This document shows, in pieces, positions 6,972-20,887 of a DNA stretch of 64,000 nt (positions are counted from its first letter, which is position 1; the number at the start of each line of letters is the position of its first letter). Where the stretch lies: NCBI GenBank assembly GCA_024222295.1, contig JAAEPF010000055.1, positions 62,001-126,000 on the forward strand, read 5' to 3'. Made by a program: the position numbers and the translations under genes. The notes below the pieces were generated by a model. It ran no database searches. It was not told the DNA's origin and was given only the letters and a program-made list of their open reading frames with translations. The stretch comes from Actinomycetes bacterium (lineage in GTDB: Bacteria > Actinomycetota > Acidimicrobiia > Acidimicrobiales > Microtrichaceae).

Positions 6972-9900
6972 ATGTTTATCGAAGGCGGATCGCTGGGCGA
7001 AGCGATCAAGGCGGGCGCGCGATCGACAACGCTGGTCTACTCGGGTCAGGATCCCGAATGGGCCGAGGGGGTGCGGTCAACCCTGCTCGCACGACCCGAA
7101 GTGCGTGCGTGGGCCACGGAGGTCCTGTTGGACCTGGACCGCCGACTGTCCGCTGACCCCACCATCCACCCCGAACTGGCGGCCGAGGGCGTGGACCCGG
7201 CCGACTGGCTGGAGGGTGGTGGCCGCTGGAGCAACGGGGAGCGGGCCGCAAGGCACCTGTGCCTGATGGGCTCGCTGCTTGGCCACATGGTCGCCGGATA
7301 CGCGCTCGCCCAGGACGGGCTTCCGTCTGAGTCGGCTGGCGTCACAACGGTCACCGGTCACAGCGCAGGGCTGTTGTCCGCCTGGGCAACGGCGCGCTAC
7401 GGCACCACCCCTGAGACTGCAGACGCCTCGGCTGCGCTCGCGGCATTCGCCGTGATCGTGGGTGAGATGGAGCGCCAGCGCGACACCATGGCGGATGCCG
7501 CCCTGGGCGAGCTGCTCGGCGGTGCAGAGGAGCCCAGCCCGATGCTGTTCGTGGCCGGCCCCACCGAGCCCACCGTTCGATCGGTACTCGAGCGCCATGG
7601 CGCGGGCACCGTGCAGGTCTCATTGCAGAACTGCTTCGACCGCTGGGTTCTCAGTGGGCGTCCTGCTGAGTTGGCGGACCTGCGGGAGCGGTTCTCGGAC
7701 ATGGGCGGTGTGGGCACCGAGTTCGTGTCCAGCAGCTGCGTGTACCACAACCCCTTGATGACCCCACACGTCGAAGCAGCCGCCAGCAGGCTCACGGAGA
7801 AAGCCCTGTCGCTGACAGGAGACCTTCTGACCGACCTGGTTGACCCCCGCGACGGCACCCGCCACACAGGCGGTGACCTCACCGAGCGCGTTGTCGCTTC
7901 CATGGCGAGCCAGCCGGTGCGCTGGGCCGACACGGTCAGCGAACTCGCCGACCCCGGCCACGTGGTTGTCGACGTCGGGCCGTCCACCTTCCTGGCAGTC
8001 GTGTGCCGCCGCGCCCTGCGCGGCAGCGGAGCGATCGTGCTCGGTGCCGGCGACGCCGCCGACCGCCGCAAGCTCGCGTCAGCGGATCACTGGCCCGAGC
8101 CCCTGGTCGACTACTCGCAGTACGCACCAACGGTCGCTGCAGATGGTGCGCACCGCGTGCGCACCCGGCACACCGATCGCAGCGGTCGCTCGGCCATCGT
8201 GCTGGCGGGCATGACTCCCAGCACCGTCGACGCTCCGATCGTGGCTGCCGCCGCCAACCGGGGCCACGTGGGCGAGCTTGCAGGCGGAGGGCAGGTCAGC
8301 CCCGCGATCCTCACCGAACGCCTGGAGGAACTCGGCGAGCTTCTCACCCCGGGCCACGAGGTCGTATTCAACGCGCTATACCTCGATCCCTACCTGTGGG
8401 GCATGCACCTCGGCAAGGACCGCCTGGTGCAGCGGGCGCGCGACAACGGCGCGCCGATCCTCGGCGTCACCGTGTCGGCCGGGATACCGGAACCGGACGA
8501 GGCAGTAGACCTCCTCGACGAACTGCATGACCACGGCATCTGGCTCAACGCGTTCAAGCCCGGCGACATCGCTGGTGTGCGAAAGGTGCTGGCCATCGCC
8601 GACCGCACCGACCACGACATCTGGCTGCACCTCGAAGGCGGCCTGGCCGGCGGCCACCACTCCTGGGAGGACCTCGAGTCGGTTCTGTTCACCACATACG
8701 GCGACATCCGCGAGCGCGACAACGTTGTGTTGCTCGTGGGCGGCGGTGTCGACTCGCCCGAGCGTTCCGCAGAGCTGATCAGCGGAAACTGGGCCCTGCG
8801 TCACGGACCAAGGGCGATGCCGGTCGACGGCATCCTCATGGGCACCGTCGCGATGGCAACCGCAGAGTCCACGGCGTCCGACTCGGTGAAGGCCGCGCTC
8901 GTGGCCGCGCCGGGCGTCGATGGAGCCGTGGCCGAGGGCGAGGTTGCCGGCGGAGTGACTTCGGGTCTCTCCGGTCTCAACGCCGACATCCACTACCTCG
9001 ACAACCATGCCTCGCGTGTGGCTGCGGTGCTCGGAGAAGTCGCGGGCGACGCGGACGCCGTCGAGGCACGCCACGACGAGATCGCAGGGCTGCTCGAGCG
9101 CACGGCCAAGCCCTGGTTCGGCGACGTCACCCGTATGACGTGGTCGGAGGTCGCCACGAGGTTCGCGGAGCTCTGCGCACTGGGGCGTCACGGTCGCTAC
9201 GAGGACGGCAGGTGGCTCGATGTCACCCACCGCAGCCGGTTCCTGACGCTGTTGCGGCGCGCTGAGTCGCGCTGTGTGGACCAGGACCACGGCACCTTCG
9301 CATCGGTGTTCCGTGACGCGGGCGACCTCGACGATCCCGCCAAGGCGATCGAGATGCTCAACGAGTGCTATCCCCTCGCGGCGCAGGCAGTGCTCACCCC
9401 GAGCGATGTCGCCGCTTTCGTCGATATCTGTGACGCACCCGGCAAGCCGATGCCGTTCGTGGCCGTCCTCGATGGCGAAGTCCGGCGTCGCTACCTGTCG
9501 GACTCGCTCTGGCAGTCGCACAGCGACTTGTGGGACGCCGACTCGGTGCTCGTCATCCCCGGGCCCGCGGCGGTCGGGGGCATCGAGGTGGTCGACGAGC
9601 CCGTCGGTGACCTGCTGGACCGCTTCGACACCGAAGTGGCGGAGTTGCTCGGAGGCCCCGGCCTTCTGGTCGCAGGCGACCTGCTCGGCGAGTCCGAATC
9701 GCCGGTCGAGCCGCGTCCGAGCGCCGTCGAGTCGCTCCTCGATGTCGTTGCTGTCCTCCACGGATCCGCGATGGTGCGCTCCCCTCTGCGGCTGCTTGCG
9801 CAGCCGGGCGACTGGGAGCTGTCCTCCGAGGGCGACCGTTGCATGGCGACGATTGGTCACGGTGGTGAGACCGCCACCCTCGAGGGGCCGCTCGAGCCCA

Positions 9901-12900
9901 CCGGCAAGGTCCGGCTCACCTTGCGTTGGCCCGAACTGGCCGGTGTCGACAACGACGGCAGGTTCTCCATCGGCTTCGACGTTGACGATGACCACGGCGT
10001 GGTGATCGCCACCCTCGACGACGACTCGTTGCTCGAGGCGCAGCGTGACGTGCTGTCGATGCTGTCTGGCGCCGCGGCTCGTGTGGCCACCGGACGGGCT
10101 GGTTCCATTGCGCCGCTCGCCGGCTCGACTGCCGTGCCCGATGCGGCGATGGGCCTTCTCTGGGGGCCTGTGTTCGATGCGCTCCTCGGCGATGACCTGG
10201 CCGACGGCCTGCTGCGGTTGGCCCATGCCCGCCACACGGTGCAGACCAATCCGCAGTCCGGTGCCGTTGATCCGCACGCAGAGATGACCGCTCGGCACCG
10301 CGCCGAGGCGGGACTCGTGGTGCGCACCACGTCATCGACCGGAGACGTCGACGTGGTCGACGAATTCCTGGTGCGCGACGCAGCCGGCGGTTCGTCGGTC
10401 GGCGCCGAGGAAGCCGATCCGGCATCAGATGAGTCGGCGCCGCAGGAAGCTGAGGGCGTCGAGTGGGTCCAGACCCCTCGCTCCTTCATCGCACGGCGGA
10501 CCTTCTCCACGCCACGCAACCCGGAGGCCTTCGCAGCCGTCTCCGGAGATGCCAACCCCATCCACCGCAGCGACCTCGTGGCCCGGTTCGCCGGGCTGCC
10601 GGGTCGGATAGTGCACGGAATGTGGACTTCAGCAGTCGCCCAGGCGTTCGTGGTCGATGACGTGTTGGGTGGCGAGACAGCGCGCTTGCACAGATGGGAC
10701 ATCCGTTTCGTGGACATGGTGGAGCCTGGCTCCACTGTCACGGTCACGGCCTCGCGTATCGCGGTGAATGACGCCGTACGCCGATGTGAGGTCCGAGTCG
10801 AGCAGGGCGACCGCGTCGTCGCACTTGCCGAGTGCGACTACACGGCGCCCCGAACCGCCTACGTCTTCCCCGGCCAGGGGATCCAGACCCCGGGCATGGG
10901 ACTGGATGCCCTCGAGCGGTCCCCGGCGGCCCGCGGCATCTGGAAGCGAGCCGACGAGTACACGCGGTCCGAGCTCGGGTTCTCCGTGCTCGGCGTCGTG
11001 CGAGACAACCCGACGGTGCTGCGTGTCGGCGACGAGGTGTTCCGGCACCCGGCAGGCGTGCTGCACCTGACCCAGTTCACCCAGGTGTCCATGGCGACGC
11101 TCGCGGCCGCGCAGGTTGAGGAGCTGAGAGAGAGTGGATTGCTCGACCCCGACGCGGTGATCGCGGGTCACTCGGTGGGGGAGTACAACGCGCTGGCCTC
11201 CGCCGGCGGCGTGCTGCCCCTCGAGGCAGTGCTCGGCATCGTGTGGGCCCGGGGCAACGCCATGCACAACCTCGTGCCCCGTGCAGCCGACGGGTCATCC
11301 GACTTCCGCCTCGGCGTCGTGCGTCCCCACCACGGCGGTCTCTCCGAGACCGAGGCGGCCGAGCTGGTCGACGCAGTTGCGGCGCAGACCGGCGAGCTGT
11401 GCGAGATCGTCAACCACAACCTGCGCGGCCGCCAGTACGCGGTCGCCGGCACCGTGAGGGCCCTGGATGAGTTGCAGGAGCGTCTCGGTGAAGGGCCGAG
11501 CGCAGCGAAGGCTCCGTTCCTGCTCGTGCCCGGCATCGATGTGCCCTTCCACTCACGCGCCCTTGCCGACGGTGTGGCCGAATTCAAGGCGCACCTCGAC
11601 GCCGCATTCCCCGAGGAGATTGACCCTGCCGAACTGGTGGGCCGGTACGTGCCCAACCTCTATCCGGAACCGTTCAGCATTGATCCGACCTACGTGGAAG
11701 CCGTCGCAGATTCGTGTGGGGGCAAGGCCTGCATCGAGATCCTGGAGGACTGGACCGAGATCTCCCAGCGCCCCGCACGGCTCACACGCCAGCTGCTCAT
11801 CGAACTGCTCGCCTGGCAGTTCGCATCGCCGGTGCGGTGGATCGAGACGACCGACATCCTGCTTGCTCCGCTCGATGAAGGCGGGCTCGGCGTGTGCAAC
11901 GTGGTCGAGATCGGGATCGGCTCGTCGCCCACACTTGCGAACCTGACGAAGGCTGCGATTGCGGCCGGCAAGGTGCAGGGCGTCGAAGTCATGCACTTCG
12001 AGGCGGACCGCACGCTCGTTTTCGAGGAGAGCGACGAGCCGGAGCCGCCCATGCCTGCGGCGTCCGTCTCGGTCGAGGGTGGAGACGACGGTGCGTCGTC
12101 CGGAATCGACCTCGATTCCGATTGGGACGGCGACGCTCCCGCGGTGGGGGTCGAGTCGGGGGCTGCTCCCGGCTCGACCCAGGCCACCGAACCCGCCCAG
12201 CCGGTCGCGCCTGCGCAACCGGTCGCGTCGACGCCTGAGGCGCCGGCTCCGGCCGCAGCCCCGTCGGCTGGGGGTGCGGTCGACGACCAGCCCGTGGGAC
12301 TCGGGGACGCCATCGGCGCCCTCATGGCCCATCTCGGCGGCGTCCGGTTCGACCAGCTCGGCGACGACAGCATCGATGACCTGGTCGACGGGGCATCCTC
12401 GCGACGCAACCAGGTGCTAATGGACCTCGGCAAGGAGTTCGGTGTCGGCTCGGTGGAGGGCGCCCACGAGGTGGCACGCAGTGTGCTGGCCGAACAGCTC
12501 GCTCCCATGGCGCGCGGCCACCGCCACCCCGGTCCAGTGCTCTCAGCCGCCGTGTCGGCCGGCATCACCTCGGCGCTGGGTCCGTTGGGAGCCGGTCCGT
12601 CGTTCGTGGCCAAGCATGTGGCTTCCGAGTGGGGCCTCGGCGAGGGATGGGCGGAGCAGTGTGAGCTGGAGCTACTGCTCGGAACACGCGACGGCGCTTC
12701 GCGCCGCGGTGGCGACCTGCGCACGCTCGAGGGAAGCGATGCCGCGGCACTGGTCGACGCAGCGCTGCAGTCCGCGGCGGCTCGCCTGGGTCTGGCGATC
12801 GCGAAGCCGGTTGCCGCAACTGCGACAGCGACCGCCGATGCGGCTGAGCTCGACGCCCTGGCGTCGCGGGTCGGTGCCGCCTTCCAGCAGGCCGCCGGCG

Positions 12901-15900
12901 CAGCAGCGGCAGTCCTCGATCCCGGTGCCGACCGCGACGCGGACGACGACTCCGCAGCGGTTGCCGCTGCGGCGGACCGCGACCGCCTCGCGCTTCTCGA
13001 CCAGGAGCACGGCGCCGATCGCGCGGAGGCGGTAGCGCCCAGCTTCGACGAGGACCGGATCCGCTGCTTCGACTCGGCCGGCATCTGGGCCCGGGCAGAC
13101 CTTGGCCACCTCTTCCACGGTGCGATGGCAGGCCGGGTGGATCCGACCGGTTTGGCCGCGGCAGTCGAGCACCTCAGGCTCTTCGCCGGATCCGACGCTC
13201 GGTTCGACGACTCGGTGAACTGGTACCTGGAGCAGGCGGCCGAGGCAGGCAACGACCCGCTCGTGCTTGCCTTCTCCACGATCGCGGAGGGTCCGACGCC
13301 CGAGCAGCGCCGCGCAGTCGGCCGATTCGGGGGGCGCACCGTGCTCGTGTCCGGTGCTTCGCCCGACTCCATCGGTGAGGCCACCGCCGCGCACCTGCTT
13401 GCAGGCGGCGCGACGGTGATCATGGTCAGCCACAGCTCCGGCCGCGGCCGCCGCAAAGCGGTGCGCGAACTGCTGCGCCGTCATGGAGGCCCGGGCGCGA
13501 AGCTGTTCCTGGTGAGGGCCAACCTGGCCTCGTTCACCGACATCGACCGGTTGGTCGGCTGGCTCGCCGATGCCACCGATGAGGACCACCCCGGGTTGCC
13601 GGATGTGGTGCTTCCGTTCGCCGCCTCTGCGGTCTCGGGTGACGTCCCCGACACCGGTGCGCGCAGCGAGGTCGAGATGAGGGTTCTCCTGCTGGGCGTG
13701 GAGCGCCTCGTGGGCCGCCTCTCCGAGGAGACCGGCTCCGCTGCGGGTGATCGACGCCTCACCGCAGTCCTGCCGATGTCGCCGAACCACGGGACGTTCG
13801 GAGGCGACGGGTCATATGGCGATGCCAAGGCCGGACTCGAGGTCCTCGAGTCCCGCCGGCTCTCCGAGTTCGACCGATGGGGACGGCACTGCCGCATCAT
13901 CGGCGCAGAGATCGGATGGGTGCGGGGAACGGGTCTGATGGCCGCCAACGACACGCTCGCACCGCTCGTCGAGCAGCAACTCGCGGTGCGCACTTACAGC
14001 CCGCCCGAGATGGGTGGGCTCATCGCCGAGTTGTGTGCCCCCGAGGAGATCGGTGGCCGCACCGGCGCAGCCGCGGAGGAGTCCGGCCAGTCGAAGGCCC
14101 GCGCCGGCGCCAACAGGGTCGACCTGACCGGCGGCCTGTCCGCGGTCGCCAGCAGTGGAGCGCTGTCGCGGCTGCTCCGCAGCGGCCTCTCGGTCAACCC
14201 GGCCGATCCCGACGCCGACAAGGAAGAGCTGGAGTCGGGCCGCGAGCTGGCGGCGCTTCTCACGCCTCCGGCTTCGGCGGCCCGAAGGGCACCCGAGTGG
14301 CCGAAGCGGCCCACGGTGACAATCGACGAAATGGTCGTGATCTGTGGCACCGGCGAAGTGGGGCCATGGGGCACCGCCTCGACCCGGCTGGGCGCCGAGC
14401 TCGGCGAGCTCGGAGGCCGGGGGACCGTGGAGCTGGCCATGCGCTGTGGCCTGCTGCGCTGGGAGCCCAACGGTGCCAAGGGCAGCTACGTGGACGTCGA
14501 CAGCGACGAGGTCGTCGACGAATCCGAGCTGGTCGATCGCTACCGCGACGAAGTGCTCGACCGATGCGGAATCCGGCCGGTTGACGATCCAGGTTTCGAG
14601 CAGGACGTCGAGGTGTTTCTCGACCGACCGGTCACCATCGGCGTGGCCGATCGATCCGCAGCGGAGGCATTCGCGGCCGCCACCGACGGTGCATCCGCGA
14701 TCCAGGACGGCGAGCGGTGGGCTGTGAAGCTGCCCACCGGAGCTCCGATGAGGATGCGCCGCAACGTGGACCTGCCACGTGGGGTCACCGCCGCCCTTCC
14801 ACGGGGCATGTCACCCGAGTCGTGCGGTGTCCCCGTCGAGGTGGCGGGGTCGATGGACCCGATCGCGGCCTGGAACCTGGTCATGACCGCCGAAGCCTTC
14901 CGCGACGCCTGTACCCGGCCCGACGAGGTGCTCAGCGTCGTGCACCCGAGCATGGTGGCCAACACACAGGGCACCGGAATGGGCGGTCTGACCAGCCTGC
15001 AGCGCCTCTACGTCGACCCGGTGACCGGCGAGGACCACGCCAACGACCTGCTGCAGGAGTCGCTCGGCAATGTTCCCGCGGCCCATGCGATGCAGTCGTT
15101 CGTGGGTGGCTACGGCGCAATGGTGCACCCGGTCGGGGCATGCGCGAGCGCCGCTGTGAGCCTCGAGGTGGCGGCCGACATCGTCGCGCTGGGTAAGGCC
15201 GACGTGGTCGTTGCCGGTGGCTTCGACGACCTGGCACGCGAGGGCATCATCGGTTTCGCCGAGATGTCCGCCACGGCTGACTCCGACGAGATGATTGCGG
15301 CGGGGTTCGAGCCCTCGGAGATGTCGCGGCCGGGAGACCGTGACCGCGCCGGGTTCGTCGAGAGCCAGGGCGGCGGCACGTTGCTCGTGTGCCGTGGTTC
15401 GGTGGCGCGCGAGCTCGGACTGCCTGTGAGGGCGGTTGTCGGACTCGCACGCAGCCATTCCGACGGCGTGCAGACATCCATCCCCGCGCCGGGCCTGGGC
15501 GCGCTGTCAATCGGTCGCGGCTCGACCGAGTCGCCCCTTGCCAACGCCTTGGCCGGTCTGGGCCTGGGTGCGGACGACATCGCGGTGGTCTCCAAACACG
15601 ACACCTCGACCCGGGCCAACGACCCCAACGAGGCGGCGATCCACGAGCGTCTGTGTGCCGAGCTCGGACGCACGCCGGGCAATCCGGTGCGTGTCGTCTC
15701 CCAGAAGGCCCTCACGGGCCATGCCAAGGGTGGTGCCGCCGCATGGCAGGTCGCGGGCATATGCGACATGTTCGACACCGCAGTCGTACCCGGCAACCCC
15801 AACCTCGATAGCCCCGACCCAGACGTTCACGCCGGCGGATGGCTGGTACCCGATGACAGGCCACTCGCCATGGAGAGCCCCCCGAGGGCCGCGATGCTCA

Positions 15901-16415
15901 CGAGCCTCGGCTTCGGCCATGTGTCGGCAGCGGTGCTGTTGGTGCATCCGGCCGCATTCGTGGCGGCACTCGAGTCGAGCGAGGTGGACATCTACCTCGC
16001 CAGGGTGGCCGAACGCGAGGCCGAGCGGGAGCACTTGCGCCGGTGGGAGCTCCACGGCGGGGAACCCGCATACAGCCGACCTGTTGACCGGCGTCTGGCA
16101 GGAGGTGACGACGAGTCGAGGCGAGCCGCGGAGATGGATGCGCTGGTCGATGAGACGACGCGCCTGGGGGCCGGCGGTGTGTTCGTGGGCTGCGGTCCGG
16201 CCGACATCGGTCCCGATGAGCGCAACGGCGGTGGTTCCAACGGCAGTGCGTCGAACGGCAGTGCGTCGAACGGCAGTGCGTCGAACGGCAGTGCGTCGAA
16301 CGGCAGTGCGTCGAACGGCAGTGCGTCGAACGGCAGTGCTTCGAACGGCAGTGCCTCCACCGGTTCCGGTGACCAGGCACCTGGCGCCGGTGTGGGCACC
16401 GGAGAGCGGTCATGA
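6972..16415 (+). CDS. fas: Type I fatty acid synthase, seven-domain single chain
   Basis: This giant 3147-residue enzyme makes long-chain acyl-CoA from acetyl- and malonyl-CoA. Domains follow the mycobacterial FAS-I order. Acetyltransferase: GHSAG, S131. Enoyl reductase: about 400-870, IVLAGMTPSTVDAPI. MaoC-type dehydratase: H1198 in SGDANPIH. Malonyl/palmitoyl transferase: GHSVG, S1401. A Pro/Ala linker of about 70 residues comes next. ACP: S1809 in DLVDGASS aligns with the phosphopantetheine serine of yeast FAS. Ketoreductase: from about 2120. Ketosynthase: C2724 in HPVGACAS, with SKHD and TGHAKGG for the catalytic histidines and lysine. ATG is preceded by a GAGGGAG ribosome site. The C-terminus carries eight NGSAS repeats. 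It overlaps acpS by 4 bp. Confidence 0.97.
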   Translation: MFIEGGSLGEAIKAGARSTTLVYSGQDPEWAEGVRSTLLARPEVRAWATEVLLDLDRRLSADPTIHPELAAEGVDPADWLEGGGRWSNGERAARHLCLMGSLLGHMVAGYALAQDGLPSESAGVTTVTGHSAGLLSAWATARYGTTPETADASAALAAFAVIVGEMERQRDTMADAALGELLGGAEEPSPMLFVAGPTEPTVRSVLERHGAGTVQVSLQNCFDRWVLSGRPAELADLRERFSDMGGVGTEFVSSSCVYHNPLMTPHVEAAASRLTEKALSLTGDLLTDLVDPRDGTRHTGGDLTERVVASMASQPVRWADTVSELADPGHVVVDVGPSTFLAVVCRRALRGSGAIVLGAGDAADRRKLASADHWPEPLVDYSQYAPTVAADGAHRVRTRHTDRSGRSAIVLAGMTPSTVDAPIVAAAANRGHVGELAGGGQVSPAILTERLEELGELLTPGHEVVFNALYLDPYLWGMHLGKDRLVQRARDNGAPILGVTVSAGIPEPDEAVDLLDELHDHGIWLNAFKPGDIAGVRKVLAIADRTDHDIWLHLEGGLAGGHHSWEDLESVLFTTYGDIRERDNVVLLVGGGVDSPERSAELISGNWALRHGPRAMPVDGILMGTVAMATAESTASDSVKAALVAAPGVDGAVAEGEVAGGVTSGLSGLNADIHYLDNHASRVAAVLGEVAGDADAVEARHDEIAGLLERTAKPWFGDVTRMTWSEVATRFAELCALGRHGRYEDGRWLDVTHRSRFLTLLRRAESRCVDQDHGTFASVFRDAGDLDDPAKAIEMLNECYPLAAQAVLTPSDVAAFVDICDAPGKPMPFVAVLDGEVRRRYLSDSLWQSHSDLWDADSVLVIPGPAAVGGIEVVDEPVGDLLDRFDTEVAELLGGPGLLVAGDLLGESESPVEPRPSAVESLLDVVAVLHGSAMVRSPLRLLAQPGDWELSSEGDRCMATIGHGGETATLEGPLEPTGKVRLTLRWPELAGVDNDGRFSIGFDVDDDHGVVIATLDDDSLLEAQRDVLSMLSGAAARVATGRAGSIAPLAGSTAVPDAAMGLLWGPVFDALLGDDLADGLLRLAHARHTVQTNPQSGAVDPHAEMTARHRAEAGLVVRTTSSTGDVDVVDEFLVRDAAGGSSVGAEEADPASDESAPQEAEGVEWVQTPRSFIARRTFSTPRNPEAFAAVSGDANPIHRSDLVARFAGLPGRIVHGMWTSAVAQAFVVDDVLGGETARLHRWDIRFVDMVEPGSTVTVTASRIAVNDAVRRCEVRVEQGDRVVALAECDYTAPRTAYVFPGQGIQTPGMGLDALERSPAARGIWKRADEYTRSELGFSVLGVVRDNPTVLRVGDEVFRHPAGVLHLTQFTQVSMATLAAAQVEELRESGLLDPDAVIAGHSVGEYNALASAGGVLPLEAVLGIVWARGNAMHNLVPRAADGSSDFRLGVVRPHHGGLSETEAAELVDAVAAQTGELCEIVNHNLRGRQYAVAGTVRALDELQERLGEGPSAAKAPFLLVPGIDVPFHSRALADGVAEFKAHLDAAFPEEIDPAELVGRYVPNLYPEPFSIDPTYVEAVADSCGGKACIEILEDWTEISQRPARLTRQLLIELLAWQFASPVRWIETTDILLAPLDEGGLGVCNVVEIGIGSSPTLANLTKAAIAAGKVQGVEVMHFEADRTLVFEESDEPEPPMPAASVSVEGGDDGASSGIDLDSDWDGDAPAVGVESGAAPGSTQATEPAQPVAPAQPVASTPEAPAPAAAPSAGGAVDDQPVGLGDAIGALMAHLGGVRFDQLGDDSIDDLVDGASSRRNQVLMDLGKEFGVGSVEGAHEVARSVLAEQLAPMARGHRHPGPVLSAAVSAGITSALGPLGAGPSFVAKHVASEWGLGEGWAEQCELELLLGTRDGASRRGGDLRTLEGSDAAALVDAALQSAAARLGLAIAKPVAATATATADAAELDALASRVGAAFQQAAGAAAAVLDPGADRDADDDSAAVAAAADRDRLALLDQEHGADRAEAVAPSFDEDRIRCFDSAGIWARADLGHLFHGAMAGRVDPTGLAAAVEHLRLFAGSDARFDDSVNWYLEQAAEAGNDPLVLAFSTIAEGPTPEQRRAVGRFGGRTVLVSGASPDSIGEATAAHLLAGGATVIMVSHSSGRGRRKAVRELLRRHGGPGAKLFLVRANLASFTDIDRLVGWLADATDEDHPGLPDVVLPFAASAVSGDVPDTGARSEVEMRVLLLGVERLVGRLSEETGSAAGDRRLTAVLPMSPNHGTFGGDGSYGDAKAGLEVLESRRLSEFDRWGRHCRIIGAEIGWVRGTGLMAANDTLAPLVEQQLAVRTYSPPEMGGLIAELCAPEEIGGRTGAAAEESGQSKARAGANRVDLTGGLSAVASSGALSRLLRSGLSVNPADPDADKEELESGRELAALLTPPASAARRAPEWPKRPTVTIDEMVVICGTGEVGPWGTASTRLGAELGELGGRGTVELAMRCGLLRWEPNGAKGSYVDVDSDEVVDESELVDRYRDEVLDRCGIRPVDDPGFEQDVEVFLDRPVTIGVADRSAAEAFAAATDGASAIQDGERWAVKLPTGAPMRMRRNVDLPRGVTAALPRGMSPESCGVPVEVAGSMDPIAAWNLVMTAEAFRDACTRPDEVLSVVHPSMVANTQGTGMGGLTSLQRLYVDPVTGEDHANDLLQESLGNVPAAHAMQSFVGGYGAMVHPVGACASAAVSLEVAADIVALGKADVVVAGGFDDLAREGIIGFAEMSATADSDEMIAAGFEPSEMSRPGDRDRAGFVESQGGGTLLVCRGSVARELGLPVRAVVGLARSHSDGVQTSIPAPGLGALSIGRGSTESPLANALAGLGLGADDIAVVSKHDTSTRANDPNEAAIHERLCAELGRTPGNPVRVVSQKALTGHAKGGAAAWQVAGICDMFDTAVVPGNPNLDSPDPDVHAGGWLVPDDRPLAMESPPRAAMLTSLGFGHVSAAVLLVHPAAFVAALESSEVDIYLARVAEREAEREHLRRWELHGGEPAYSRPVDRRLAGGDDESRRAAEMDALVDETTRLGAGGVFVGCGPADIGPDERNGGGSNGSASNGSASNGSASNGSASNGSASNGSASNGSASNGSASTGSGDQAPGAGVGTGERS
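16239..16358 (+). repeat. Eight 15-bp tandem repeats encoding NGSAS at the FAS C-terminus
   Basis: Eight units of AACGGCAGTGCGTCG run without a break. The last two differ by one and two bases in their final codons. They encode (Asn-Gly-Ser-Ala-Ser)8, a flexible low-complexity tail after the ketosynthase. Near-identity at DNA level suggests recent slippage expansion, so the copy number may vary between strains. Confidence 0.95.
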
Positions 16416-16891
16416 GCGTCGTCGGGCTCGGCATCGACCTGGTGGAGGTCGAGCCGTTCGCCGCCCAACTCAACGCCACCGGAACCAGCTTCCTCGAGGG
16501 CACGTTCAGTCCGGCAGAGCTCCGCCGGGCCCGCGATGGCCACGAAGTCTCCTCGACCGGGTTCGCCCGGCACCTGGCCGCGAGGTTCGCCGCCAAGGAA
16601 GCCTTTGTGAAGGCTTGGTCGATGGCCCGTGCGGGGATGCCGCCCGCCATGCACGACGTGCATTGGACCGACATCTGCATCGAGTCCGACGACTGGGGGC
16701 GCCCGTCGATCCTGCTCGGTGGCGAGACGGCGGAGTGCGTGGCCGACACCCTTGGCCGGGTCTCGCTGTCCGTGTCGCTCACCCACGAGGACTCGGTCGC
16801 GGGCGCGGTGGTCGTCATATCGCCGGCCGTCGCATCGCCACCGGCGTCCTCGTCCGCTGATGTCGCCTCGTCGGGGGAGGCAGTCCGATGA
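16412..16891 (+). CDS. acpS: Holo-[acyl-carrier-protein] synthase
   Basis: AcpS transfers 4'-phosphopantetheine from CoA to the ACP serine, here most likely S1809 of the adjacent FAS. The 159-residue protein shows the two metal- and CoA-binding signatures: GIDLVEVE near the N-terminus and RFAAKEAFVKA near residues 55-66. The C-terminal part contains SVSLTHE, usual for the family, and a longer Ala/Ser tail. ATG overlaps the fas stop (ATGA), and its own stop overlaps the next gene, so all three are translationally coupled. The fas-acpS pair is also found in mycobacteria. Confidence 0.95.
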   Translation: MSVVGLGIDLVEVEPFAAQLNATGTSFLEGTFSPAELRRARDGHEVSSTGFARHLAARFAAKEAFVKAWSMARAGMPPAMHDVHWTDICIESDDWGRPSILLGGETAECVADTLGRVSLSVSLTHEDSVAGAVVVISPAVASPPASSSADVASSGEAVR

Positions 16892-18810
16892 TCTCGCACC
16901 ACCAGCTCTCCTCCATGCCTGGCCTCGTTGTGGCGCACTGTGTAGAGGTTGGTGACCGCGTCGACGCCGGAGATGTCGTTGCCGTGGTCGAGACCATGAA
17001 GTGCGAATGGCCAGTGCATGCCGAGGAGAGCGGCCGGGTCACCTGGCTGTCTCCGCTGGGCGACGTGCTGGCGGTCGGCGACGACATCGTGCACATCCGA
17101 GCGGTGGAGTCGATCCGCCCCCCTGCCCCCGACGACCTCGCCGACCTGCTCACGGGCGCCACCCCCGAGCCGCGCCTCATGGGGCTCACGAACGGGGCGA
17201 CGTTCGCCGAGTATGACCTCGATCCCGATGACCCGGACAAGCTCATCGCCGTGCCCAGGGGCCGCACCGATCGTGAGGCCGGCATCGTGGTGGGACTCGT
17301 GTCGCATCGTCTGCACGGCACCGGAGCCCCGGTCAGGCGGGTCTGGCTCTGTGGTGACGCCACGATGGCGCTCGGCGCCGTGTCCGAACCCGAGTGCGCG
17401 CGGATCATCGCGGCCATCGACATGGCCGAGGAGATGGGTCTTCCCCTCGAGTGGGTGGCCGTGTCGAGCGGCGCGCGGATCTCGATGAGCTCGGGCACCG
17501 AGAACATGGACTGGTGCGCCGCCGTGGTGCGCCGGCTGGTCGAGTTCACCCAGGGCGGTGGCGAGGTCGTCATCGTGGTCGCGGGGATCAACGTGGGCGC
17601 CCAGAGCTACTGGAATGCCGAGGCCACGATGCTGATGCACTGCGCCGGCATGCTCGTCATGGTCGAGGGTACGGCCATGGTGCTCACGGGGCACCGGTCG
17701 CTGGCCAAGGCCGGAGGTGTGAGCGAGCGAAGCGACCACGACCTGGGTGGCACACCGGTGATGATCACCAACGGCCAGGCGCACCACCGTGCCGATGATC
17801 TCGTGGAGGCCCTGCGGCTGGTGCTCATGCACCACAAGTTGTGCGCCCACGGCCCTGAGCATCCACGCAAGCGGGTAGCCACACTCGACGCTGCCGACCG
17901 CGACGTGTGCGACGACCCCTATGACGTGGCGGACCACTCGACCCCAGGAAGGCGCGGAATGGCCGACCTGGGCGACGTGCTGCACGCCGCAGCCAATCCG
18001 GACCGCACGAGGCCGTTCGCGATCGAACCGGTCATGGCAGCCCTTGCCGACCGCGACGCACCACAACTACGGCGTTGGGAGGACTCGAAGGGCGCAACCG
18101 GGGCACATGTGTGGGACACCAGGGTGGACGGCTGGGGGGTCAGCCTGATCGGCATCGATTCCAGGCCCCGGCAGGTCGACGGCACATGGGAAGCCGCGGC
18201 CACGCTCTATCCGGAAGGTGCACGCAAGGTTGCACGCGCTCTCAACCACGCCAGCGGGCGCCGCCCGGCGGTCGTGCTCGCCAACCTGGCGGGCTTCGAC
18301 GGCTCGCGGGACTCGCTGTTCAACCGCCAGCTCGAACACGGCGCCGAGCTCGCGCGTGCAGTCGTCAACTTCCGCGGTCCACTCGTGGTGGTGGTCATCG
18401 GTCGTTTCCACGGAGGTGCGTACGTGGTTCTCAACCGGCGCCTCAACCCCGAGCTGCGGATCGTCGCACTCGAGGGCACGAGGGTGTCGGTGATCGGTGG
18501 CACGTCGGCCGCCGAGGTGGTGCTGCGCCGACAGGTCGCCGAGGAACTCGAACGGGCCGGCGGCGACCCGGGCGACACCGAGGCGCACCGCGCTGCAGTC
18601 GCGAAGGTGGCCGCCGACTTCGACCGCACTCACGACGTGCACCGTGCGGCCGCGGTGGGTTCTGTCGACCGTGTGATCGGTCCCGAGGACCTCCGGCCGG
18701 TGGTCTCGTCGCTCGTGGCCGCCGCCGGCGACGAAGAGTCGGCGGAAGCGGACCTCAGAGCGACGGGTCGAGAGCCACGGCTCGCAGATAGGAGCGCAGC
18801 GCCCGCTTGA
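16888..18810 (+). CDS. Fused biotin carboxyl carrier / carboxyltransferase protein (acyl-CoA carboxylase-type)
   Basis: Residues 8-72 form a biotinyl domain with K38 in ETMKCE as the biotin site, a variant of the usual AMKM. The rest is a carboxyltransferase of the crotonase-like AccD/AccA type. An N-half at about 105-320 (SSGARISMSSGTENMDW, AGGVSERSDHDLGG) is followed by a C-half at about 360-600 (GARKVARALNHASGRRPAVV, RFHGGAYVVLN). No biotin carboxylase domain is present, so that subunit must be encoded elsewhere. Coupling to fas and acpS suggests it supplies malonyl-CoA to FAS (inference). Other biotin-dependent carboxylations remain possible. Its 3' end overlaps the convergent TetR gene by 56 bp. 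Confidence 0.8.
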   Translation: MISHHQLSSMPGLVVAHCVEVGDRVDAGDVVAVVETMKCEWPVHAEESGRVTWLSPLGDVLAVGDDIVHIRAVESIRPPAPDDLADLLTGATPEPRLMGLTNGATFAEYDLDPDDPDKLIAVPRGRTDREAGIVVGLVSHRLHGTGAPVRRVWLCGDATMALGAVSEPECARIIAAIDMAEEMGLPLEWVAVSSGARISMSSGTENMDWCAAVVRRLVEFTQGGGEVVIVVAGINVGAQSYWNAEATMLMHCAGMLVMVEGTAMVLTGHRSLAKAGGVSERSDHDLGGTPVMITNGQAHHRADDLVEALRLVLMHHKLCAHGPEHPRKRVATLDAADRDVCDDPYDVADHSTPGRRGMADLGDVLHAAANPDRTRPFAIEPVMAALADRDAPQLRRWEDSKGATGAHVWDTRVDGWGVSLIGIDSRPRQVDGTWEAAATLYPEGARKVARALNHASGRRPAVVLANLAGFDGSRDSLFNRQLEHGAELARAVVNFRGPLVVVVIGRFHGGAYVVLNRRLNPELRIVALEGTRVSVIGGTSAAEVVLRRQVAEELERAGGDPGDTEAHRAAVAKVAADFDRTHDVHRAAAVGSVDRVIGPEDLRPVVSSLVAAAGDEESAEADLRATGREPRLADRSAAPA

Positions 18811-19393
18811 GCTCCCTCACCGCGGAGGGGTGCGGGCGGTCATCGCGCACCGAGAAGTGCAGCAGCGAGTAGCACATCTGCACCACGACCTCCGCGATCG
18901 TGCGCGTGCGGCGCTTCGAGCCGGGCGGAAGCAACGGCTCCACCAGGGGCACGACCTCGTCGGTGACCACCTTGGTCTGGTCCGCCAGCAGTGAGCGGGT
19001 GGCGGCGGTGGACTGCATGGCCAGCCACACATGGCGACGCGTGGGGTCAGTACGCCAGAGCTCGGCGAGGTTGTCGATCACGCCGTCGGTGCCGGACTGC
19101 CATTCGGTCGTGTCGAAGCCCTGCGCCGCCTCATGCAACTCCGACGCGAGAGCCACGGTGTCCTCGCGTGACAGCTCCGCGATCAGTGCGTGCTTGTTGG
19201 GGAAGAACTGGTACACGGAGCCGATGGGAACGTCGGCGCCGATTGCGACCGCCTCGAGTGTGAAGCCATCGAGGCCGACCTCAGAGAGCTGCGAACGCGC
19301 GCTTGACAGGATCAAGTCGAAGCGTCTTCGGCCGCGTTCCTGCACCGGTCGCTTGCGCACTGACAGCTGGGGCGCTCCCATGCCCACAAGCAT
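18755..19393 (-). CDS. TetR family transcriptional regulator
   Basis: The N-terminal helix-turn-helix is typical: FTLEAVAIGADVPIGSVYQFF followed by PNKHALIAE. The ligand-binding half has no recognisable specificity. I chose the ATG at 19393; 19381 is a second option. A longer form from 19483 would run through the ferredoxin start and promoter, so it is unlikely. The gene is divergent from the ferredoxin/reductase pair with a 12-bp palindrome in between, so it probably represses that pair and itself (inference). Its last 56 bp overlap the end of the carboxyltransferase gene on the other strand. Confidence 0.85.
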   Translation of the reverse strand: MLVGMGAPQLSVRKRPVQERGRRRFDLILSSARSQLSEVGLDGFTLEAVAIGADVPIGSVYQFFPNKHALIAELSREDTVALASELHEAAQGFDTTEWQSGTDGVIDNLAELWRTDPTRRHVWLAMQSTAATRSLLADQTKVVTDEVVPLVEPLLPPGSKRRTRTIAEVVVQMCYSLLHFSVRDDRPHPSAVRELKRALRSYLRAVALDPSL

Positions 19394-19414
19394 GGCCCGT
19401 CGCCGCGGTCCCTG

Positions 19415-19426
19415 CAGGTCGACCTG
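19415..19426. promoter_or_regulatory. 12-bp perfect palindrome (CAGGTCGACCTG), candidate TetR operator
   Basis: The palindrome lies between the TetR start and the ferredoxin -10 box at 19454. It sits where a repressor would block the ferredoxin promoter. Arms of 6 bp with no spacer make chance occurrence possible. Confidence 0.35.
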
Positions 19427-19453
19427 TGCGAAGTGCGGCCCGTGCGGCGAAGG

Positions 19454-19459
19454 TAGAGT
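19454..19459 (+). promoter_or_regulatory. Leaderless -10 box (TAGAGT) for the ferredoxin
   Basis: TAGAGT ends 7 nt before the ATG at 19467. No ribosome binding site follows it, consistent with a leaderless mRNA. Confidence 0.4.
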
Positions 19460-19466
19460 CTCGGCC

Positions 19467-19658
19467 ATGAAGATCGAGATCAATTACGACCTGTGCGAGG
19501 CAAACGCGATCTGTATGGCGATCGCGCCAGAGGTGTTCGAGGTTCGTGACGACGACAACCTCTACATCCTCGACGAGAACCCGGGCGAGGACATGCGCGA
19601 GAAGATGGAAGAGGCCGTGCGCCGTTGCCCGAAGCAGGCCATCGCAATCAGCGGGTGA
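19467..19658 (+). CDS. Single-cluster ferredoxin (3Fe-4S type)
   Basis: The small acidic 63-residue protein has cluster cysteines C10, C16 and a C-terminal C in RRCPKQA. The pattern C-x2-N-x2-C has Asn at the position where 4Fe-4S ferredoxins have the second cysteine. This is typical of the actinobacterial ferredoxins, usually 3Fe-4S, that feed electrons to cytochrome P450s and some oxygenases. Its stop overlaps the GTG start of the adjacent reductase (GTGA), so the two form a coupled electron-transfer pair. No P450 gene is in the window. The start is fixed by a TAGAGT box 7 nt upstream. Confidence 0.85.
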   Translation: MKIEINYDLCEANAICMAIAPEVFEVRDDDNLYILDENPGEDMREKMEEAVRRCPKQAIAISG

Positions 19659-20887
19659 AACCCACAGTCGTAGTCGGCGCTTCCCTGGCCGCCATGAGCG
19701 CGGTCCAGGCGATGAGGGCAGCGGGCCACGACGGCCACATCATCGTTGCCGACCGCTCGCCGGTCCTGCCGAAGGACCGGCCGCCGCTGTCCAAGCAGGT
19801 GCTGGCCGGCGAATGGGACCTGGGCCGCGCCAACCAGCCCGTGGCGAGTCAGCTGGCCGAGCTCGATGTCGACCTACGCCTCGACTGCCTGGCGCAGTCC
19901 CTCGATGCTGCCAATCGGCTCGTGGTCCTGGCGGACGGTGAGCACATCGAGGCCGAAGGCATCGTTGTCGCCACGGGGTCGGCCGCGCGACAGCTTCCGG
20001 GTCCACAACTGGAAGGCGTGCACACCCTGCGCACCGGCGCCGACTCGATGGCGCTCCGTGATCGCCTGGATGCCACCGAAGGCCGCGTGGTCGTGGTGGG
20101 CGCCGGATTCATTGGCGCCGAAGTCGCGGCGACCTGCCGTGAGCTTGGCCGTGATGTGACGATGATCGAGGCCGCACCCGTGCCGCTGCAGCGGGCCCTG
20201 CCCGGCGACATCGGCATGTTCGTGGCGGACCTGCACCGTGACCACGGGGTGGACGTGCGCCTTGGCGTGGGCATCGAGTCGATCGAGTCCGATGACGACG
20301 GAGCCGTGAAGGCAGTGTTGCTCGCCGACGGCACGGAGCTGGAGGCCTCGGTGGTCGTGGTCGGCATCGGTGCCGCGGTGCAGACCGGTTGGCTGGAAGG
20401 TTCCGGACTCGATGTGCGGTCGCCGGCGGACGGCGGCGGCGTGCTCTGTGACGCGACGATGCTGGCGGCCCCGGGGATCGTCGCCGCCGGCGACGTGGCC
20501 GCATGGCCCAATCCGCACTTCGGCGGCGAGGTCATGAGGGTCGAGCACTGGGAGAACGCGATCGACCAGGGCACCCATGCCGGGCGGCGCCTGACCGCAG
20601 AGCTCGGGGGTGGTGCCAGTGGACCGATCGACCCGTTTGCGAGTGTTCCCTGGTTCTGGACCGACCAGTACGACGCCAAGATCCAGATGGTCGGCCGGGC
20701 ATCACCGGAGGACGAGGTCGTGGTGGTGGACGGCTCGCCGGCCGAACGACGCTTTGTTGCGCTGTTCAGGCGCGGCGACCAGTGCCGTGCGGCGCTGGGC
20801 GTCAACCGCGCCCGCCTTGTCGTACAGGCCCGCATGAAGCTCGCCGAATCGCTCGACTGGTACTCGGTCATGGAGTTGTTCTCCTGA
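19655..20887 (+). CDS. FAD-dependent ferredoxin reductase
   Basis: The 410-residue protein is of the putidaredoxin/rubredoxin reductase type. It has an N-terminal FAD Rossmann motif (VVVGASLAAMSAVQAMR), a central NAD-binding motif (RVVVVGAGFIGAEVAATCRE), a GD-containing FAD motif (GIVAAGDVAAW) and a C-terminal reductase domain (PWFWTDQYDAKIQMVG). It would pass electrons from NAD(P)H to the ferredoxin encoded just upstream. I chose the GTG at 19655 because it overlaps the ferredoxin stop. A longer start at 19625 would run into the ferredoxin coding region. The final oxygenase partner is not adjacent. Confidence 0.9.
   Translation: MKPTVVVGASLAAMSAVQAMRAAGHDGHIIVADRSPVLPKDRPPLSKQVLAGEWDLGRANQPVASQLAELDVDLRLDCLAQSLDAANRLVVLADGEHIEAEGIVVATGSAARQLPGPQLEGVHTLRTGADSMALRDRLDATEGRVVVVGAGFIGAEVAATCRELGRDVTMIEAAPVPLQRALPGDIGMFVADLHRDHGVDVRLGVGIESIESDDDGAVKAVLLADGTELEASVVVVGIGAAVQTGWLEGSGLDVRSPADGGGVLCDATMLAAPGIVAAGDVAAWPNPHFGGEVMRVEHWENAIDQGTHAGRRLTAELGGGASGPIDPFASVPWFWTDQYDAKIQMVGRASPEDEVVVVDGSPAERRFVALFRRGDQCRAALGVNRARLVVQARMKLAESLDWYSVMELFS

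Follow-up and report, generated by a model that had tools for sequence, protein, structure and literature searches.

Which biotin carboxylase (BC) charges a eukaryotic-type carboxyltransferase (CT) that is tied to a type I fatty acid synthase (FAS-I) in one coupled unit from which the domain starting the reaction has been left out? The question is raised by a stretch of 64,000 nucleotides, referred to below as the window, from contig JAAEPF010000055.1 (C55; positions 62,001 to 126,000) of the 3.76 Mb draft genome of an actinobacterium of the family Microtrichaceae (assembly GCA_024222295.1). Here, fas is followed by acpS, the gene for a phosphopantetheinyl transferase, and by a third gene, which encodes a biotin carboxyl carrier protein (BCCP) domain joined to a CT. 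With moderate confidence, and from the gene content, we propose that the third gene product is a BC-less component of acetyl-CoA carboxylase (ACC): a CT that is charged in trans and makes malonyl-CoA specifically for FAS-I. An AccA-like BC–BCCP chain would carboxylate the biotin on K38 in trans, using ATP and bicarbonate, and the carboxylated carrier would then swing to the attached CT. The malonyl-CoA then made by the CT would go to the unit's own FAS-I, the carrier domain of which would be activated by the AcpS encoded between the two.

The carrier–carboxyltransferase fusion

A preliminary description of the window had reported that the three genes overlap by 4 bp and that the third protein, with K38 in ETMKCE, combines a biotin domain and a CT without BC. 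On all these points our analysis agrees: both junctions read ATGA, the lysine stands in V-E-T-M-K-C-E, and Pfam finds the two domains (Table 1) and no BC family in the protein (P0001). The same description had compared the protein with the C-terminal portion of eukaryotic ACCs. This was borne out by a profile built from the window BCCP-CT and 18 relatives, which gave 44 matches among PDB sequences: the first 20 were eukaryotic ACC (2.5e-36 to 8.4e-28), followed by CTs of the propionyl-CoA carboxylase (PCC) and AccD types from 3e-12 down. It had further called for a comparison with the AccD/AccA and PCC families. In the resulting CT tree, the outgroup of 8 PCC-like CTs was separated with 100/100 support from the seven short CTs, the CTs of 24 full-length single-chain ACCs and yeast ACC, the branch of which is very long. 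An ordinary PccB/AccD identity for the CT is rejected by profile and tree; the CT is, besides, fused to a carrier. Judged by these sequence comparisons, the window CT is a group V CT, like those of the single-chain ACCs of eukaryotes and actinobacteria (SACE_4237 type).

The AlphaFold2 model of BCCP-CT has a mean pLDDT of 79.4 and a pTM of 0.78. Foldseek placed ACC chains from eukaryotes in 49 of its best 50 rows and a long-chain acyl-CoA carboxylase in the remaining one; the carrier was barely covered by this search, as CT matches take up the whole list. VIA Z values ranged from 27.7 to 30.9 and were similar for ACC and AccD/PCC CTs, the top row being M. tuberculosis AccD6, so that by this measure the predicted fold does not discriminate between the two. 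Aligned length alone favours ACC, with 468–542 residues for eukaryotic ACC CTs against 403–457 for most PCC/AccD-type CTs. In the carrier domain, strands are predicted at residues 12–17, 30–36, 39–44, 49–54 and 68–71, with K38 between the second and the third. The CT loop residues S193, G195, A196, I198 and H508-G509-G510-A511 are invariant in the 19-row alignment; position 508 is R in yeast ACC and H in the bacterial forms, short and full-length alike.

The window protein and three other short proteins examined with Pfam gave BCCP and CT matches only, and the ACC_central region was not found in any of these four. By comparison, BC, BCCP, ACC_central and CT matches were obtained for the four full-length relatives examined (L045, L046, L054 and L126), the BC match of L045 being weak. 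CT identity between the short form and bacterial full-length single-chain ACCs of the SACE_4237 layout amounts to 43–51%.

Association with type I fatty acid synthase

Among named genomes, the best 80 of 586 confirmed loci were kept, and these contained 9 frames of at most 900 aa and 3 frames of 901–1500 aa. Our count of short loci leaves out 6 of the former and all 3 of the latter, most of which (not L079, L096 and L112) start at a contig end. On this basis, the short BCCP-CT form occurs at a minimum of 8 distinct loci. Six are in the window's family, where 6 of 33 genomes possess the short form, always in the order fas-acpS-CT-tetR; the other two are in a Nanopelagicales (L064) and a Micrococcales (L065) metagenome-assembled genome (MAG). 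The short locus of G770, one of the six in the family, is identical to L066 (Microthrixaceae bacterium SSF14) over 13,562 of 13,562 overlapping bases and was counted with it as one; this very likely places the window in the class Acidimicrobiia. All eight distinct loci show the gene order fas-acpS-CT, a convergent TetR orthologue and a 4-bp acpS/CT overlap; fas and acpS overlap by 4 bp in six and, by coordinates, by 1 bp in L042 and L264. Since the gene order is shared by all eight, the arrangement is not due to chance. A location of the fusion far from fas in all relatives would, by the preliminary description, have spoken against its reading; at each of the eight loci the fusion lies beside fas.

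Within the class, a strong CT match (393 bits or more) was found in 25 of 395 genomes. Four of these are short proteins (G000, G177, G190 and G299) and 21 are CTs in frames of 918–2026 aa; the 15 of these 21 loci that were fetched encode frames of 1797–1964 aa. The FAS-I marker PF08354 is present in exactly the same four of the 395 genomes as the short BCCP-CT, a coincidence with a chance of about 1e-9 if kinship is ignored. In all four FAS-I genomes examined, only the ketoacyl synthase (KS) of FAS-I itself gives a strong FabF-like match (7.0e-32 to 3.5e-37; 7.0e-32 in the window's genome), other FabF-like matches being 2.3e-5 or weaker; FabH-marker matches do not exceed 32.9 bits and are mostly partial. 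Because there is no strong separate FabF and FabH is weak, de novo synthesis in this set probably depends on FAS-I alone wherever it is present, and the CT probably arrives with it. FabH markers of 85–96 bits over all 80 positions are present in G366 and G387, relatives from outside the family, and their FabF-like matches are strong too. G087 and G258, which belong to the family but have no FAS-I, gave no clear FabH either; the best FabF-like match of the former is 1.2e-4, and those of the latter lie in frames of 1586 and 2452 aa. As a separate observation, no FAS-I marker was found in G087, which is 96% complete, and this organism may be a fatty acid auxotroph.

Three observations thus favour the dedicated malonyl-CoA supply suggested by the preliminary description: the synteny, the joint occurrence with FAS-I and the absence of any clear type II synthase (FAS-II) in these genomes; we infer the biotinylation of K38, acetyl-CoA as the substrate, AccA as the partner and co-transcription of the unit. 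Several observations weigh against such a role. The four FAS-I genomes also hold other CTs and AccA, which could supply malonyl-CoA without the fusion, and some of the weak FabH-marker matches in G000 and G177 pass the Pfam cut-off of 24. The residue that follows the biotin lysine is C at seven of the eight short loci and L at the remaining one (L065), not M; among the matches listed, full-length frames of more than 1500 aa have MKM in 82 of 83 cases and MKT in one. Co-transcription is read only from the gene overlaps, and G190 is the only single-contig genome. FAS-I is uncommon in the phylum sample (17 of 396 genomes). Sixteen of these are other than the window's, and fas-acpS loci were readable in 14 (G743 was left out, and the contig of G487 stops inside fas). 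None of the 14 has a CT beside acpS, and in six of them a TetR orthologue follows acpS, so that the CT gene would occupy the gap between acpS and tetR. Among six such genomes searched, four contain a group V CT elsewhere (G441, G487, G648 and G657) and two contain none (G463 and G590). FAS-I therefore needs neither a CT neighbour nor a group V CT.

Proposed charging in trans and competing explanations

The BC partner, for which the preliminary description had recommended a search, is most likely a separate AccA-like BC–BCCP chain, to judge from gene content. The window's own genome contains two Biotin_carb_C matches, both on other contigs; a BC gene inside the fas-acpS-CT unit is accordingly rejected. 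One match (L230) lies in a 591-aa frame that combines BC with an MKM carrier and scores above the cut-off of the BC subunit model NF006367; the second lies in a frame of 705 aa, near a CT on its contig. In G299, which is 98% complete, the single Biotin_carb_C match is in a 590-aa frame, and this chain must serve every biotin carboxylase there, barring a further BC in the small portion of the genome that is lacking. In the other three FAS-I genomes, one match each falls in a frame of 590–592 aa.

Alternatively, BCCP-CT may be a BC-less transcarboxylase that moves the carboxyl group from methylmalonyl-CoA to acetyl-CoA and so yields malonyl-CoA without ATP. A carrier and a CoA-type CT without BC are nearly what a transcarboxylase is made of, and the structural neighbours of the model include the CT of 12S transcarboxylase (1on9, Z 28.5, 442 residues). 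We nevertheless regard this as improbable, since the CT is of group V and not 12S-like in sequence (8.4e-28 or better for eukaryotic ACC against 1.5e-11 for 1on3), a BC is encoded in all four FAS-I genomes examined, and no second CT is fused or adjacent to the fusion. It is tempting to go further and to picture fas-acpS-CT as a nearly self-contained cassette moving between lineages without FAS-II, its BCCP-CT acting as an ATP-independent methylmalonyl-CoA:acetyl-CoA transcarboxylase that would feed FAS-I directly. As a whole, this would be very surprising on the gene content; the unit does make one ask whether a cassette of this kind could bring fatty acid synthesis into lineages that lack FAS-II.

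Two further explanations concern the carrier and the substrate. The fused carrier could be a relic or a structural domain, carboxybiotin being brought by the BCCP of AccA as in two-subunit acyl-CoA carboxylases; the departure of the fusion from MKM and the presence of an MKM carrier in AccA itself would fit. However, all eight short loci retain the lysine within E-x-M-K, the best-scoring partner of each short carrier is another short carrier (7 of 7), and an L directly behind this lysine occurs naturally in plastid BCCPs, all of which makes a relic unlikely. On average the short carriers score about equally with full-length and AccA carriers, the domain being too short in sequence to be placed phylogenetically. 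There is also a slight chance that propionyl-CoA or some other acyl-CoA is the main substrate of the CT, which would then feed the synthesis of methyl-branched fatty acids. The extender for FAS-I is malonyl-CoA, and PCC-like CTs are encoded elsewhere in the window's genome, both of which count against this substrate; in its favour, SACE_4237 also accepts propionyl-CoA.

Relation to known systems and history of the unit

The unit appears to combine familiar parts in a novel way: an ACC of eukaryotic type with carrier and CT only is coupled to FAS-I and AcpS. It resembles the C-terminal part of eukaryotic ACC in the extent of the CT alignment and in its closest PDB sequences, but lacks BC and the central domain, which eukaryotic ACC places between carrier and CT and in place of which the short form joins the two directly; identity in the aligned part is ~20%. 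Like two-subunit acyl-CoA carboxylases (AccA3/AccD, PccA/PccB), it would have its BC–BCCP chain separate from the CT chain, except that its CT chain carries a BCCP of its own and is not PccB-like in sequence. Pyruvate carboxylase subunit B, the oxaloacetate decarboxylase alpha subunit and transcarboxylase likewise have a CT and a carrier without BC. These systems use a pyruvate-type CT or separate chains; here, the CT is a CoA-type group V enzyme and the carrier is N-terminal.

Group V comprises actinobacterial homodimeric multidomain ACCs of the SACE_4237 type (Livieri et al. 2019, PMC6491548), with which the short form shares BCCP and CT in one chain and, as proposed here, a role in malonyl-CoA supply for fatty acids. 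The short form differs from them in the absence of BC and central domain and the direct junction of BCCP and CT, in length (640 aa against about 1800–1960), in its MKC or MKL motif as opposed to MKM, and in its position inside a fas-acpS unit; the likeness itself was measured against other full-length bacterial ACCs. The mycobacterial fas-acpS operon (PMC5356441) also has FAS-I followed by AcpS, and differs in that a CT stands beside acpS here. AccS of Shewanella is another bacterial multi-domain ACC, described as having a domain order other than the eukaryotic one (PMC11602165). The term 'BCCP-CT' occurs once in PMC3199775, as part of BC-BCCP-CT, and once in PMC11077971. No description of the fas-acpS-CT arrangement was found in the titles and abstract openings of the open-licence literature, nor any paper on FAS-I in Acidimicrobiia.

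As to the origin of the short form, the seven short rows do not form one clade in the free CT tree; constraining them to one gave a better likelihood (AU p 0.674), so that they may have a single origin. The full-length CTs of this tree come together in one group with 100/100 support. Very long branches lead to yeast and set the PCC rows apart, which makes the root unsure. At least 4 of the 7 outgroup rows of a first CT tree were wrong open reading frames; the second, with the outgroup replaced, is the one we trust. The subgroups {G299, L066} and {L064, L065} are common to the FAS and CT trees. The subgroup {window, G177, G190} has 100/98 support in the FAS tree and 99/99 in the first CT tree, and is unresolved in the second; the pairing within it and the joining of the subgroups differ between FAS and CT trees. 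Transfer or old paralogy of the whole unit would suit these trees, since G299 and the window share a family and yet fall into different subgroups. The short form also bears on whether group V ACC gained its domains or the short form lost them, either of which these trees would allow, a question that touches on where eukaryotic ACC came from.

There may have been more than one event in which a group V ACC came to lie behind fas-acpS: at L126, from a MAG assigned to Proteobacteria, the gene that follows acpS, joined by ATGA, encodes a full-length ACC of this group, and its CT falls inside the full-length ACC group. The BC part of this ACC contains two in-frame stops in this assembly, and the protein may be damaged or misread. 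Group V ACCs also stand beside megasynthases more than once. Five large frames adjoining, or one frame from, full-length group V ACCs (L045, L050, L054, L056 and L058; picked by size from 15 class loci and thus not a rate) all contain KS and acyltransferase domains, and four of the five a ketoreductase (KR). The single-chain ACC at L045:8438-13960 (G366) adjoins a KS–acyltransferase–KR–dehydratase megasynthase; its BC part scores weakly, the glycine loop motif searched for was not found, and a group V ACC without BC may here have come about in a different way.

Table 1. Coordinates of the fas-acpS-CT unit and of the genes behind it, in positions of the window
Feature	Position	Strand	Size and evidence
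fas, type I fatty acid synthase	6972..16415	+	3147 aa; Pfam PF08354 1.4e-86, acyltransferase, MaoC, ketoacyl synthase, FAS_I_H
acpS, phosphopantetheinyl transferase	16412..16891	+	159 aa; NF000831 134.2 bits vs cut-off 124
BCCP-CT fusion (P0001), short form of group V ACC	16888..18810	+	640 aa; Pfam Biotin_lipoyl, Carboxyl_trans
Biotin carrier domain, residues 9-70	16912..17097	+	PF00364 5.2e-11
Codon of K38, expected biotin attachment lysine, ETMKCE	16999..17001	+	sequence
Carboxyltransferase domain, residues 157-612, both halves	17356..18723	+	PF01039 1.4e-33; predicted fold
TetR-family regulator, convergent; 3' end overlaps fusion gene	18755..19483	-	PF17928, PF00440; open reading frame, true start maybe downstream
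Pyridine-nucleotide reductase-like flavoprotein, downstream of unit	19625..20887	+	

The window fas encodes the bacterial FAS-I domain set by Pfam (helical, acyltransferase, MaoC dehydratase and KS domains). The acyl carrier protein model reaches 25.3 bits, below its 30.6 cut-off, and no KR or enoyl reductase model is listed at E 0.001; AcpS passes its curated model. The C-terminus of FAS-I (about 16240-16360) ends as a run of NGSAS repeats. The three genes have a GC content of 0.69–0.70 (0.83–0.87 at third positions), similar to that of five neighbours, 0.67–0.69 (0.80–0.92). The convergent TetR protein is a candidate fas regulator; FasR models stay below their cut-offs in all four TetR proteins examined. 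A frame with a start similar to that of the downstream flavoprotein is found at L042 5102-6331 (G177).

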